A DNA stretch of 64,000 nucleotides from Natronorubrum sediminis (GTDB lineage Archaea; Halobacteriota; Halobacteria; Halobacteriales; Natrialbaceae): the NCBI RefSeq assembly GCF_900108095.1, contig NZ_FNWL01000001.1:1364001-1428000 (forward strand), in the 5' to 3' direction. Made by a program: the position numbers and the translations under genes. The notes below the pieces were generated by a model. The model was not told the DNA's origin. It ran no database searches and saw nothing but the letters and a program-made list of their open reading frames with translations. Below, piece after piece: positions 6,200 through 11,893 of this stretch (the stretch's first letter is position 1; the number at the start of each line of letters is the position of its first letter).

Positions 6200-8056
6200 A
6201 TGTCGTCAGCGGTTTTCCTCGCTCAGGAAGCGACCACCCAGCCAGACCTGACGAGTGACATGCTCGTCGTCTTCGGCGTCGTTGGGCTGGCACTCGTCCT
6301 CTTCGTCACCGAGCGACTGCCGATCGACGTCACCGCGATCTTGTTGATCGTGATCCTCGTCGTCCTCGAGCCCTGGACGGGGATCGACCCGAGCACCGGC
6401 ATTTCCGGCTTCGCCAACGACGCGACGATTACGGTGCTCGCGATGCTCATCCTCAGTGGCGGCGTCGCCCGAACGGGTGTCGTCCAAGAGGTCGGCCGGC
6501 GAATGGCCGGGTTCGCGGGCGACAACCTCCGGAAACAGCTGTTCGCGACCACTCTCGCGAGCGGGCCCGTCTCCGGGTTTCTCAACAATACGCCGGTCGT
6601 CGCGCTGTTGGTGCCGGTCGTCTCCGACGTCGCGAACCGCGGAAACACGTCGCCCTCGAAGCTCCTCATTCCGCTGTCCTACGCCTCGCAGGTCGGCGGC
6701 ATGCTCACGCTCATCGGCACGTCCACGAACATCCTCGCAAGCGATATCAGCGGCCGCCTCGGGGAGGACTACGCCGAACTCCACCAGTTCTCGATGTTCG
6801 AATTCACGCAGTTGGGTGCCATCGTCGTCGTCGTCGGCTCGCTGTACCTGATCTTCGTCGGTCACTACCTCATCCCCGAGCGCGTGCCGCCACAGGCGGA
6901 CTATCTCGAGTCCTACGAGGTCGGCGACTACCTCGCCGACGTGGCCGTCGTGGCAGGCTCGCCACTCGCCGGGTCGACGGTCGGGAACGCGACCAACAAG
7001 CTCGGTCCCGAAATCGATATCGTACAGGTCGTCCGCGACGGCGATCGGTCGGTCGCCCCCGGACGCGACACGCAACTCGGCGAAGGCGACATTCTCGTCG
7101 TCCGGACGGATCGAGACGCGATCACGATGCTCGAGGACGCATTCGGTGTCGAACTTGTTGGACGGCCGGCGTCGACCGCAGAGCTCTCACCCGAAGGAGG
7201 CGACGGCAGTATCACCGAACTGGTCGTCTCGCTCGACTCCCGACTCGTCGGCGAACGACTGGACCCCGAAGCGTTTCGCGAGGAGTTCGGCGCTGCCGTC
7301 CTCGGACTTCGTCGCCACGGCGAACTAATCGGCGACCGAATCGTCGGCCGGCGACTCGACGTCGGTGACACGCTGCTCGTACAGGCCCCCTCCGACACGC
7401 TGGATCGACTCTCGAGACGCGACGACGTGATCGTTGCTCGCGAACCGCCCCAACCCGACTATCGGGCCGCCAAAGCGCCGATCGCCATCGCCATCATGAT
7501 CGGCGTCGTCGCCGTCGCCGCCCTCGAGATCTATCCAATCCTGCTCTCGGCGCTCGCCGGCGTCGTCGCGATGGTCGTCACGGGCGTCCTCGAGCCAAAC
7601 GAGATGTACGACGCCGTCGAGTGGGACATTATCTTCCTGTTGGCGGGCGTGATCCCGCTCGGAATCGCCCTCGAGCAGTCGGGTGCGGCCGCCTACCTCG
7701 CTTTCCTCGTGGTCGAGACGGCCGGCTTCCTGCCGACGATCGTGGTCCTGTGGCTGTTTTACATCGTAACGGGGCTGATCACGGAACTGATCAGCAACAA
7801 CGCGAGCGTCGTCCTCTTGATCCCGGTCGCCGCGGCCGCGGCGGCGGGTATCGGCGCGAATCCCTTCGCGTTCGTCCTCGCGGTCACGTTCGCCGCCAGC
7901 ACGGCCTTTCTCGGGCCGATCGGCTATCAGACGAACCTGTTCGTCTACGGACCGGGGGGCTACCGCTTCAGCGATTACTTCCGCGTCGGCGCACCGCTAC
8001 AGTTGCTGTTGTCGATCGTGACCGTCCTCGGCATCTCGGTCTTTTGGGGTGTGTGA
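6200..8056 (+). CDS. SLC13-family anion permease with two RCK_C (TrkA-C) domains
   Basis: A 618-residue membrane transporter of the DASS/SLC13 group, which carries sulfate, phosphate, di- or tricarboxylates with sodium. The N-terminal half has FLNNTPVVALLVPVV with Asn129-Asn130-Thr131-Pro132 and TSTNILASD; the second half has the matching SNNASVVLLIPV (Asn533-Asn534) and PIGYQTNLFVYGPG, the paired helix-hairpin signatures of the family. Two soluble TrkA-C regulatory domains interrupt the membrane part, at about 230-313 and 334-413, and may bind a small ligand. I chose ATG 6200 (MSSAVFLAQ); the frame is open earlier but reads as non-coding. The PiT gene follows 128 bases later, giving an anion-uptake block. 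The substrate cannot be told from sequence. Confidence 0.88.
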   Translation: MSSAVFLAQEATTQPDLTSDMLVVFGVVGLALVLFVTERLPIDVTAILLIVILVVLEPWTGIDPSTGISGFANDATITVLAMLILSGGVARTGVVQEVGRRMAGFAGDNLRKQLFATTLASGPVSGFLNNTPVVALLVPVVSDVANRGNTSPSKLLIPLSYASQVGGMLTLIGTSTNILASDISGRLGEDYAELHQFSMFEFTQLGAIVVVVGSLYLIFVGHYLIPERVPPQADYLESYEVGDYLADVAVVAGSPLAGSTVGNATNKLGPEIDIVQVVRDGDRSVAPGRDTQLGEGDILVVRTDRDAITMLEDAFGVELVGRPASTAELSPEGGDGSITELVVSLDSRLVGERLDPEAFREEFGAAVLGLRRHGELIGDRIVGRRLDVGDTLLVQAPSDTLDRLSRRDDVIVAREPPQPDYRAAKAPIAIAIMIGVVAVAALEIYPILLSALAGVVAMVVTGVLEPNEMYDAVEWDIIFLLAGVIPLGIALEQSGAAAYLAFLVVETAGFLPTIVVLWLFYIVTGLITELISNNASVVLLIPVAAAAAAGIGANPFAFVLAVTFAASTAFLGPIGYQTNLFVYGPGGYRFSDYFRVGAPLQLLLSIVTVLGISVFWGV

Positions 8057-8184: not shown

Positions 8185-9366
8185 ATGGTCGAAACGCTTC
8201 TCCTGGTTGGAGTCGTTGCGTCGATTTTCGTTGGCTTCAATATCGGTGGCTCGTCGACGGGCATCACGTGGGGCCCCGCCGTCGGTGCCGGGATCGTCAC
8301 GAAGACGGCGGCGGCAGCGATCATGACCGTGTTCGTCTTTCTCGGCGGGATCAGCGTCGGGCAGAACGTCATGGAAACGCTCAGCGAGGGCATTATTACG
8401 ATCGACCTCACGTTGTCCGCCGGCGTCGCCGTGCTCTTTTTCATCGGATTGGGGATCCTCGTGGCCAATATCTTCGGCGTCCCCGTCCCGACGTCGATGA
8501 CCACCGTCGGCGCAATCGCCGGACTCGGGTTGGCAACTGGCACGTTGAACTACGCGACGATCACCGAGATCATCTCCTGGTGGATCGTCACGCCGATTAT
8601 CGGCTTCTGGATCGGCGGAATCATCGGCCGATACATCTATCCGGCGATCAATCAGCGGGTGACGATCGAAAAGACGGAGGGACCACTGCTGACTCTCGAG
8701 CGACGGGGCCCGATTCCGACGGTGGCGCTTGGTCCGAACACGACGCGATCGGAGATTGGGACCACGGCCGTCGTGTTCGCCGTCGGCTGTTACATGGCGT
8801 TCAGCGCCGGTGCGAGCAACGTCCCGAACGCCGCTGCGCCGCTGGTCGGCGAAGCGGGACTCGAGGTCAACACCGCGGTCGTCATCGCCACGCTCGCCAT
8901 CGGCCTCGGCGGGTTCACCATCGCCCGGCGAACGATGGAATCGGTCGGGGGCGAACTGAGCGACATCCCGCTTCTCGCGGCGCTGTTCGTCATGGTGACG
9001 GCGTCGTCGATCACGACCGCGCTCTCGTATATCGGGATTCCGATCAGCCTCGTGATGGCGACGGTGATGACCATCGTCGGCATCGGCTGGGGCCGGGCGA
9101 CCCGACCGATCACCGTCCGCGAGGCGGTCACCCGCGACAGCGAGATCACGGAGCGAGAAATCGTTCCGGGAGCGATCACGGCCGAGGAGATGGAAGGCGA
9201 ACCATCACCACCGATCGGTGAGGAAGAGCCCGAGGAAGTGCTCGACGCCGGCGACCTGTTCAACCCGCGAGCCGTGATCAAGTACCTCTCGATGTGGATC
9301 ATCGGCCCGTCGATGTCGACGATACTGGCCTACGGATTCTTTACGCTCCTTCCGGGCGTCGCCTGA
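8185..9366 (+). CDS. PiT-family inorganic phosphate permease (copy 1)
   Basis: A 393-residue membrane protein of the PiT family, which carries phosphate with a cation. The duplicated signatures are visible: the N-terminal GFNIGGSSTGITWGPAVGAG and the internal AFSAGASNVPNAAAPLVG, each with the G-A/S-N-x-x-N/G core, and PVPTSMTTVGAIAGLG near residue 100. About ten membrane helices are split by an acidic loop. Its tail ends in a hydrophobic helix. It is about the same length as, and clearly paralogous to, the gene at 10718-11893, toward which it points. A TATA-like GATATTT at 8152-8158 lies about 28 bases before the ATG, fitting a leaderless mRNA. Confidence 0.93.
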   Translation: MVETLLLVGVVASIFVGFNIGGSSTGITWGPAVGAGIVTKTAAAAIMTVFVFLGGISVGQNVMETLSEGIITIDLTLSAGVAVLFFIGLGILVANIFGVPVPTSMTTVGAIAGLGLATGTLNYATITEIISWWIVTPIIGFWIGGIIGRYIYPAINQRVTIEKTEGPLLTLERRGPIPTVALGPNTTRSEIGTTAVVFAVGCYMAFSAGASNVPNAAAPLVGEAGLEVNTAVVIATLAIGLGGFTIARRTMESVGGELSDIPLLAALFVMVTASSITTALSYIGIPISLVMATVMTIVGIGWGRATRPITVREAVTRDSEITEREIVPGAITAEEMEGEPSPPIGEEEPEEVLDAGDLFNPRAVIKYLSMWIIGPSMSTILAYGFFTLLPGVA

Positions 9367-9485: not shown

Positions 9486-9914
9486 ATGCTTTCGACGATC
9501 CTCGTTCCCGTCGACGATTCCGAACACGCCGGTCGAGCCCTCGAGTACGCACTCGACAACTACCCCGACGCCGAGGTCACCGTCCTCCACGTCGTCGGCG
9601 TCCCGTCGATGATGATGGGTGATGCAGTTGGACTAACCCTCGAGGACGACCTCGAGGAGGCGGCCGCCGAACGCGCCGAGTCGGTGTTCGAGCGAACACA
9701 GGCGATTGCCGACGACCGGGATCGCGAGATAGAAACGGCCGTCGGCGTCGGTCATCCGGCCCGGAACATCATCGACCGTGCCGAGGACTACGAGACGATC
9801 GTCATCGGCAGTCACGGCTCCGACTGGGATCGCGCGACGCGCCGGTTTCTGGTCGGCAACGTCGCCGAGACGGTGTCGAAGCGAGCGCCCGTTCCGGTCG
9901 TGATCGTTCGCTAA
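9486..9914 (+). CDS. UspA-type universal stress protein
   Basis: A 142-residue single Usp domain. The N-terminus is MLSTILVPVDDSEHAGRALEYAL, with the Asp pair of the first beta strand. The nucleotide-binding loop is IGSHGSDWDRATRR followed by FLVGNVAETV and the closing strand VPVVIVR, close to the G-x2-G-x9-G-S/T motif of ATP-binding Usp proteins but with Asn in the last position. It follows the PiT gene on the same strand after 119 bases. Usp proteins often sit beside transporter genes in haloarchaea and may regulate them; this is context, not proof. Confidence 0.92.
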   Translation: MLSTILVPVDDSEHAGRALEYALDNYPDAEVTVLHVVGVPSMMMGDAVGLTLEDDLEEAAAERAESVFERTQAIADDRDREIETAVGVGHPARNIIDRAEDYETIVIGSHGSDWDRATRRFLVGNVAETVSKRAPVPVVIVR

Positions 9915-9932: not shown

Positions 9933-10565
9933 TCACTCCTCGTCAGCGTCGTCCCCGACCGACTCCTCGACGATCTCCTCGATCTCAGACTCTCGAGGGC
10001 GGCGTTCGACGCGTTCTTTGACGTCTTCGACCTGCGTCTGGACCGCTTCGACCTGTCTTTCGACCGTTTCCTCGACCGACGCCTCGACGACCTCCTCGAC
10101 TTGTGTCTGGACGCCTTCGACCTGCTCTTCGACCGTTTCTTCGACTTGTGTCTGGACGCCTTCGACCTGCTCTTCGACCGTTTCTTCGACTTGTGTCTGG
10201 ACGTCTTCAACTTGCTCTTCGACCGTTTCTTCGACTTGTGTCTGGACGTCTTCAACTTGTTCTTCGACCGTTTCCTCGACCTGCGACTGAACGCCTTCGA
10301 CTTGCTCTTCGACCGTTTTTTCGACCTGCGTCTGAACCGCTTCGACTTGCTCCTCGACGGTCTGTTCAACCGCCTGCGTCATCCAGTCGGGATCGAACCG
10401 AGCCATCTTCCAGACGACGTGAACGACGTAGGAGGCGAACACACCGACACCGAACGCGATTCCGACGTTCGTCTCGACCGTTGCGATCAGGACGATCGAG
10501 AGGACGATCAACGCCCCGTACGCGAGGTCGACGACCGCGTCGACGCGAACCGGGTTCATCGCCAT
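9933..10565 (-). CDS. Membrane-anchored pentadecad-repeat coiled-coil protein
   Basis: A 210-residue protein of unknown function. Residues 10-30 and 34-52 are hydrophobic helices; Arg7, Lys53 and Arg56 flank them, so both ends should be cytoplasmic. From residue 71 to 160 there are six nearly perfect 15-residue repeats (consensus EEQVEGVQTQVEETV), then a decayed copy and an acidic tail. Valines fall at positions 4, 7, 11 and 15 (spacing 3-4-4-4). That is not a heptad; 15 residues in four turns is the periodicity of right-handed coiled coils such as the YadA stalk or VASP tetramerisation helix. The gene lies between two phosphate permease genes and a Usp gene. Start may be Met1 or Met3. Confidence 0.8.
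   Translation of the reverse strand: MAMNPVRVDAVVDLAYGALIVLSIVLIATVETNVGIAFGVGVFASYVVHVVWKMARFDPDWMTQAVEQTVEEQVEAVQTQVEKTVEEQVEGVQSQVEETVEEQVEDVQTQVEETVEEQVEDVQTQVEETVEEQVEGVQTQVEETVEEQVEGVQTQVEEVVEASVEETVERQVEAVQTQVEDVKERVERRPRESEIEEIVEESVGDDADEE
10086..10355 (-). repeat. Six tandem 45-bp repeats encoding 15-residue units
   Basis: The coding strand repeats a 45-base unit six times, matching residues 71-160 of the coiled-coil protein. Neighbouring units differ by only a few bases, mostly giving Asp/Gly or Ser/Thr changes, so they look recently duplicated and could vary in number between strains. Confidence 0.85.
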
Positions 10566-10717: not shown

Positions 10718-11893
10718 TCAAAAGCCGAAGATCGGGACGAACCGGAACGTCAGGAACGCGCCAAGCGTCGCGAGCACCGGGACGAAGTTCTGGACTAAGA
10801 TCACCCGCGCAGTCGTCGACGGATCGAACAGATCCGACGCCTTCGGGATGTCCGCGGCTTCTTCCTCCCCAATTTCCGGTGCGGGTTCGCCCTCCTCCTC
10901 TGCGGTGAGTGCACCGACGGAGACACTCGTCTCCTCGCCGCCTCGAACGGCGTCCGTTACCGTCGTCGTCCGGGTCGCGCGCCCCCAGCCGAGCCCGATA
11001 ATGCTCATCGTCGCGACGATGACCAACTGGACCGGAATCCCGATCGCCGAGAGCAGGGTTACGATCGTCGCCGAGACGGTCATCACGACGACCGCCGCCG
11101 TCAACGGCAGGTTCGTAATATCGTTCCCCATCGTCTCGAGCGTCCGTCTAGCGATGGTGAACGCACCGATGGTGACCGCGACGCCCGCGAGGATGACTCC
11201 CCACTCCATCGAGAGGGCACCGCTGCCGACGAGCGGTGCAACGGCGTTTGCGACGTTACTGGCCCCCGAGCTAAAGGCCATGTAACAGCCGATCGCGACG
11301 ACGATCAGCGAGCCAGTGATCTCGCGTTTGTCCGTCCCCTCCGCGGCGGAGACTTTCGGAATCGTCGACGAGCGATCGACCACCCACAGGTGGGTTTCGC
11401 GTCTCGAGATAGCGACCCACTCGTTGAGTTGCGGGTAAAAGTAGCGGCCGATCACGCCGCTGACCCAGAAGGCGACGATCGGCGCAACGATCCACCACGA
11501 GACGATTTCGCCCATCGTGGCCCAATCGAGCGTCCCCGTCGCCAGTCCGAGGCCGGCAATCGAGCCGACCGCGGTCATCGACGTCGAGGCCGGAACGCCG
11601 AACAGATTGCCCGCAAATAACGCGAGGCCGATGAAAAACAGGACACCGATCCCCGCCTCGAGCGTCAGAATATCGGCTGGGACGATGTCCTCCCCGAGCG
11701 TTTCCACGACGGCCGGCCCGACGATCCAACCGCCGAGAAAGAAAAAGACCGACATCAGCGCGGCGGCCCCGAGTTTCGAGAGCACGTGGGCGCCGACAGC
11801 GGGTCCGAACGAGACACCGGTGGTCGCCCCACCGATATTGTAGCCGACGAAGGCAGCCACGAGAATACCGATCAGTAACAGTGTCTCGATCAC
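10718..11893 (-). CDS. PiT-family inorganic phosphate permease (copy 2)
   Basis: A 391-residue paralogue of the permease at 8185-9366, pointing toward it. The family signatures are GYNIGGATTGVSFGPAVGAH at the N-terminus, GVPASTSMTAVGSIAGLG near 100 and AFSSGASNVANAVAPLVG in the second half. An acidic hydrophilic loop near 310-345 is followed by a last membrane helix. The start codon is GTG at 11891-11893; a TTTATCC element about 25 bases upstream agrees with a leaderless transcript. Having two PiT copies around a Usp gene and a membrane-bound coiled-coil gene suggests one functional locus for phosphate uptake. Confidence 0.93.
   Translation of the reverse strand: MIETLLLIGILVAAFVGYNIGGATTGVSFGPAVGAHVLSKLGAAALMSVFFFLGGWIVGPAVVETLGEDIVPADILTLEAGIGVLFFIGLALFAGNLFGVPASTSMTAVGSIAGLGLATGTLDWATMGEIVSWWIVAPIVAFWVSGVIGRYFYPQLNEWVAISRRETHLWVVDRSSTIPKVSAAEGTDKREITGSLIVVAIGCYMAFSSGASNVANAVAPLVGSGALSMEWGVILAGVAVTIGAFTIARRTLETMGNDITNLPLTAAVVVMTVSATIVTLLSAIGIPVQLVIVATMSIIGLGWGRATRTTTVTDAVRGGEETSVSVGALTAEEEGEPAPEIGEEEAADIPKASDLFDPSTTARVILVQNFVPVLATLGAFLTFRFVPIFGF

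Follow-up and report, generated by a model that had tools for sequence, protein, structure and literature searches.

Valine-repeat membrane proteins genetically associated with CysP-like PiT permeases in haloarchaea

PhoU-like (DUF47) proteins act as cytoplasmic partners of PiT permeases; to our knowledge, no accessory subunit has been described for the CysP-like PiT anion permeases. The CysP protein of Bacillus subtilis has lost the aspartates of the GANDVANA (GAND) motif, a loss that a study of sulfate transporters ties to sulfate (PMC5840216). As for long helices, the YadA stalk and the VASP tetramerisation domain form right-handed 15/4 coiled coils, and the range accessible to alpha-helical coiled coils has been given as 3.33 to about 3.9 residues per turn, with 4.0 named as lying outside it (PMC4786415). 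Here we describe a gene from a 64-kb stretch of Natronorubrum sediminis DNA (64,000 nucleotides, hereafter the window), which the initial annotation had interpreted as encoding a membrane-anchored 15/4 coiled coil between two phosphate permeases. No account of this protein family, or of a four-residue core repeat, was found in the literature searched, whose coverage leaves out most subscription papers.

The gene product begins with a hydrophobic hairpin, continues as a long helix rich in acidic residues and valine, and closes with a short tail (Table 1). The near-perfect 15-residue repeats noted initially are real: their 45-bp array is the top-scoring array of the whole window in Tandem Repeats Finder, and the protein unit reads VEETVEEQVEGVQTQ, with valine steps of 4-4-4-3. 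Along the coil the steps run 4434443444344434443444343..., comprising five full 4-4-4-3 units and partial ones, and the Fourier period of 3.765 agrees with the 15/4 spacing that had been proposed. An AlphaFold2 monomer model built with 18 family members yields two hairpin helices followed by one continuous helix of 128 residues through the repeats, with pLDDT of about 90-95 across most of its length; neither an unstructured chain nor a left-handed heptad was predicted. The two predicted membrane helices with positively charged outer flanks were likewise recovered, with R/K at the N-terminus and just after helix 2 (WKMAR). Because positive residues flank the hairpin on the outside and none occurs in the turn, the positive-inside rule suggests that both ends of the protein, and hence the coil, are cytoplasmic. 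The 15/4 stripe is compatible with a helical bundle without proving one. The nearest relative (L056) has 225 aa and is longer by one 15-residue repeat. Searches with the window protein found no solved structure of similar sequence, no Foldseek match in the PDB below E 1, and only weak, coil-driven matches in Pfam, NCBIfam and PHROGs.

Table 1. Features of the gene and its neighbours in the window, with the basis of each assignment.
Feature	Positions	Strand	Basis
DASS/SLC13-type anion transporter with TrkA_C domains, often kept in the cluster	6218-8056	+	Profile match and neighbourhood comparison
PiT1, PiT-family permease, CysP-like, convergent with the gene	8185-9366	+	Profile matches and tree
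Universal stress protein (Usp) gene, between PiT1 and the gene in most Natrialbaceae	9486-9914	+	Profile match and neighbourhood comparison
Gene under study, 210-aa protein with two-helix membrane anchor and long acidic helix	9933-10565	-	Intact ORF, ATG start
C-terminal motif ERVERRPRESEIEEIVEESV, kept as ERVDRRPREDEVEEL in many relatives	9957-10016	-	Sequence comparison
Uninterrupted helix (residues 60-187) with valine at nearly all hydrophobic positions and a period of about 3.75	10005-10388	-	Valine steps/Fourier and AlphaFold2
Tandem repeat of 45 bp (15 residues), 5.8 copies, 91% matches	10096-10358	-	Tandem Repeats Finder
Transmembrane hairpin (residues 5-56), where conservation within the family is highest	10398-10553	-	Alignment and AlphaFold2 helices 5-29 and 32-56
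PiT2, PiT-family permease, CysP-like, outside the clade usually paired with the family	10718-11893	-	Profile matches and trees

Homologues were found in 48 of the 61 relatives searched, and the family is present in 205 of 292 Halobacteria genomes, representing 59 of 77 genera. It appears to be confined to haloarchaea, because all 41 genomes with a match in a phylum-wide draw of 295 belong to a single order, that of the haloarchaea. Eight haloarchaeal plasmids carry the gene, which the deposited plasmid records annotate as "hypothetical protein", and none of the phage records does. The hairpin alignment contains 16 invariant columns, including H..WKM.RFDP.WM; D9, D13, G17, G39, G41, Y46, H49 and WKM are invariant, with RFDP.WM next. 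Protein length varies from 114 to 361 aa across homologues. Two assemblies (genomes G004 and G005; loci L100, L101, L102 and L103) break within the repeat and leave the halves of the gene at the ends of different contigs; lengths taken from short-read assemblies may be wrong. Some haloarchaea also have a sister family with the same hairpin and coil design (FYID..YGVLF...GY..HVWGKME; loci L074 and L106:7239-8075 (+), and also L073, L075 and L105), and in L074 and L106 its gene directly adjoins a PiT gene.

Across the family, the 15/4 pattern is the exception. Among the hydrophobic steps after the hairpin in 127 distinct homologues, four-residue steps number 3320, three-residue steps 354 and five-residue steps 15, and the commonest pattern was uninterrupted four-residue valine spacing, with a median run of 17 steps. 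Among the 121 proteins in which run length was measured, runs of 10 or more consecutive 4-steps occur in 86, of 20 or more in 52 and of 30 or more in 34. The longest run comprises 65 steps, or 260 residues; in shuffled coils no run exceeded 5. The tetrad consensus is V-[EGSD]-[EKD]-T, and VGET/VSET tetrads are most often 8 or 12 residues apart. Only the coils of the window protein and of its nearest relative consist mainly of 15/4 repeats. The rest of the Natrialbaceae combine 15/4, 19/5 and 23/6, and coils that are purely 4/1 occur in many further lineages. The 15/4 periodicity initially proposed holds for the window protein, but most relatives carry long pure 4-residue repeats, and judged by sequence the 15/4 form is a speciality of the window lineage, long 4-residue arrays being the family norm. 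A control scan for runs of at least seven steps covered 9523 other ORFs from the same loci; the 25 longest runs listed fell only in frames antisense to the gene, in a single gene fragment, in members of the sister family and in an unrelated subtilase from a gammaproteobacterium. The last is a subtilase (S8) precursor of Seongchinamella sediminis (L055:4286-6397 (+)), in which 33 valine steps of four residues follow one another upstream of the protease domain. Valine tetrads thus seem to have arisen more than once, because this subtilase is unrelated to the haloarchaeal family. What is unusual about the family is its periodicity; a gene with a coil is as such ordinary, and the surprise lies in the tetrad arrays, not in the 15/4 repeat.

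With long stretches at exactly 4.0, the homologues fall outside the published coiled-coil range. A simple geometric calculation for a trimer agrees with the published bound, giving a radius of helix curvature of 76-120 A at 3.75 residues per turn versus only 12-14 A at 4.0. It follows that either the tetrads do not form continuous coiled coils, or the helices relax locally (by pi-turns or underwinding), or the bound as now accepted has been drawn too narrowly. For a tetrad relative, AlphaFold2 also predicts a helix, but weakly, with pLDDT mostly of 50-72. This contrast with the confident model of the 15/4 protein is in line with an unusual geometry, although a thinner alignment may also account for it. 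We tentatively entertain, as a somewhat doubtful possibility, an ordered valine-tetrad bundle of an undescribed kind, whose core would repeat every 4.0 residues exactly along as many as 260 residues. Such a bundle might be achieved by continuous underwinding, by regular pi-turns (perhaps at VGET/VSET), or by packing against several neighbours in turn, and the window protein would be its relaxed 15/4 version. The natural series from 15/4 through 19/5 and 23/6 to pure 4/1, on a common anchor, makes the bound directly testable with short peptides.

Linkage to PiT genes is conserved well beyond the window: 98 of the 127 distinct homologues have a PiT-family gene within 1.5 kb, located downstream on the same strand in 36 cases, divergently in 22, and divergently on one side and convergently on the other in 27. 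The remaining 29 homologues (23%) have no PiT nearby. In the Halorubrum/Halobellus group (L042, L045, L118, L119, L163 and L070), the gene occupies another conserved neighbourhood without a PiT; across the 29 loci without linkage, the many spurious ORFs that GC-rich DNA yields on the antisense strand masked any shared alternative neighbour. In the window itself, the two PiT genes are mutually convergent and the Usp gene is in place; the gene is convergent with the usp-PiT1 pair and lies on the same strand as PiT2, downstream of it. The Usp neighbour is present in the window and in most Natrialbaceae but accompanies only part of the family loci.

The gene is co-inherited with one clade of these permeases. 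In a tree of 158 PiTs, the gene-adjacent ones form one clade of 91 rows (SH-aLRT 99), the exceptions outside it being the Natrialbaceae PiT1 group and the window PiT pair, and a careful tree of a subset recovers the same clade with support of 100/99. Where the gene is present without an adjacent PiT, a PiT of this clade is found elsewhere in 18 of 20 genomes, compared with 5 of 20 genomes lacking the gene (one-sided Fisher test about 3e-5, calculated by hand and ignoring shared ancestry; the fast tree behind these counts supports the enlarged clade at only 0.66). PiTs of the wider CysP-like group occur in 291 of 292 genomes, so these permeases need no such partner in general. The window locus is atypical: trees place PiT2 outside the clade, and its strand is that of the gene, at a site where relatives have a divergent clade PiT, and no obvious clade PiT was found among the other PiTs of the genome. 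Given this placement and the altered orientation, PiT2 probably came from outside the clade and replaced the earlier permease in place. The putative replacement coincides, in this single case, with the shift from tetrads to 15/4.

The label of phosphate permeases, originally given to the two window PiTs, is unsupported. The NCBIfam CysP model (NF053884) gives 140 (140.3) bits for PiT1 and 173 bits for PiT2, below its cut-off of 400, versus 16 bits or no match with the PitA model, and alignment with a solved phosphate transporter (6l85) shows that both GANDVANA aspartates are replaced in PiT1 and PiT2. None of 111 related PiTs keeps either motif aspartate. On these comparisons, both permeases are assigned to the CysP-like branch of the PiT family, and their substrate would presumably be an anion. 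Aspartate loss was also considered as proof of sulfate transport, an argument that was dropped because a fourth PiT of the genome (G000:C1:1351501-1352565 (-), about 11 kb to the left of the window) reads GAGSSGSTPFAPAVGAN (GAGSSGS) at the motif and likewise lacks the GANDVANA aspartate.

The reading we find most likely, at about even odds, is that the gene product is an accessory subunit of one CysP-like PiT clade, in the form of a membrane-anchored, self-associating helix. It draws on the conserved gene linkage, the co-inheritance with a permease clade, the confident helix model of the window protein and the constraint on the valines. In such a subunit, the conserved two-helix hairpin would be embedded in the membrane, probably in contact with the permease or with further copies of itself, and the long acidic helix would project into the cytoplasm, where it would associate with other copies through the valine stripe. 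With a stripe every 3.75 residues, as in the window protein, a right-handed bundle about 19 nm long would be expected; in most relatives the stripe recurs every 4.0 residues over long stretches. The stalk would probably cluster or space permeases, and could thereby affect transport, rather than measure an exact distance; an exact ruler is unlikely because stalk length changes quickly through gain or loss of whole repeats. This reading is weakened by the 23% of homologues without an adjacent PiT, by the clade PiTs of the five gene-less genomes, by the position of PiT2 outside the clade in a genome with no evident clade PiT elsewhere, by the weak helix prediction for the tetrad relative, and by the low support of the enlarged clade in the fast tree.

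Several other explanations deserve consideration. DNA slippage in units of 12 or 45 bases might have generated the repeat, which would then mean little for the structure, as the 91% likeness of the 45-bp copies, the range of protein lengths and the two assemblies that break inside the gene would allow; we consider this improbable, because the valines remain unchanged despite synonymous divergence. Valine occupies 97% of the hydrophobic positions in 4-step runs, its codons are mixed (1792 GTC, 337 GTG, 178 GTT and 87 GTA), and when the window gene is compared with that of the nearest relative, 34 coil valine codons show 8 synonymous and 0 replacement changes. Slippage can explain copy number, but would not account for the retention of valine, for the persistence of the family in 205 genomes, or for the tetrads of an unrelated bacterial S8 protease. 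An amphipathic helix of the apolipoprotein kind, resting flat against the membrane surface, is suggested by the top Pfam match of the window protein, apolipoprotein A1/A4/E (PF01442, E 5e-6), yet the score of 26.7 bits is far under the gathering score of 90, the hydrophobic face is one valine wide with few basic residues, the period is 3.75-4.0 and not 11/3, and tetrad members match other families instead, which makes this reading highly implausible.

Alternatively, the protein may form no bundle at all, acting instead as a lone helix of high charge, or as a chain disordered in part, and so adjusting the ion or protein surroundings of the permease, without a continuous valine core at least in the tetrad members. 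The net charge of about -0.25 per residue is in keeping with such an acidic brush, as are the uncertain AlphaFold2 model of the tetrad member and the geometry: a period of 4.0 on a normal helix holds one face for no more than about 36-40 residues, and the supercoil needed at 4.0 would impose a bending radius of 10-18 A. A brush would not, however, need strict valine spacing, yet only 7 single polar gaps stand against about 3300 4-steps, and the window protein is confidently predicted as a continuous helix; on balance we think this explanation rather unlikely. There is, finally, a slim chance that the gene serves another membrane process and that its PiT linkage is inherited synteny. The 29 of 127 homologues without a PiT nearby and the different conserved neighbourhood of the Halorubrum-type loci speak for it, whereas the association of several gene orders and orientations with one PiT clade, and co-occurrence even when unlinked, argue against it.

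The putative accessory subunit and its neighbours can be compared with four described systems. The two window PiTs resemble the CysP sulfate permease in matching NF053884 and in the absence of the motif aspartates, but they score under the cut-off of that model. DUF445 proteins (PF04286, e.g. E. coli YjiN) resemble the family in being membrane proteins with a long helical region. The DUF445 profile matches the coil of a tetrad relative at 33.3 bits against a cut-off of 33.8 (coil only, profile positions 62-304 of 368) and 7 of 13 tetrad members at E below 0.001, and gives 10.4 bits, under the cut-off, for the window protein. E. coli yjiN (L176:3967-5247 (-)) shows a weak Fourier peak near 4.0, and YjiN is a possible bacterial example of a similar periodicity. 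With the YadA stalk and the VASP tetramerisation domain, the window protein shares a long helix built on 15-residue repeats, each with four core positions, at 3.75 residues per turn, a likeness drawn from the literature (PMC4786415), with no sequence relation to any solved structure; it differs in that the core of the family is almost only valine, an N-terminal membrane hairpin is present, and relatives reach a period of 4.0. The PhoU-like (DUF47) accessory proteins correspond to the family in its proposed role as cytoplasmic partner of a PiT permease. No PhoU-type domain appears among the 25 Pfam matches listed for the window protein, up to E 1, and, unlike these proteins, the family protein consists of one long helix anchored in the membrane, which makes it, in most haloarchaea, a different kind of candidate accessory subunit for these anion permeases.
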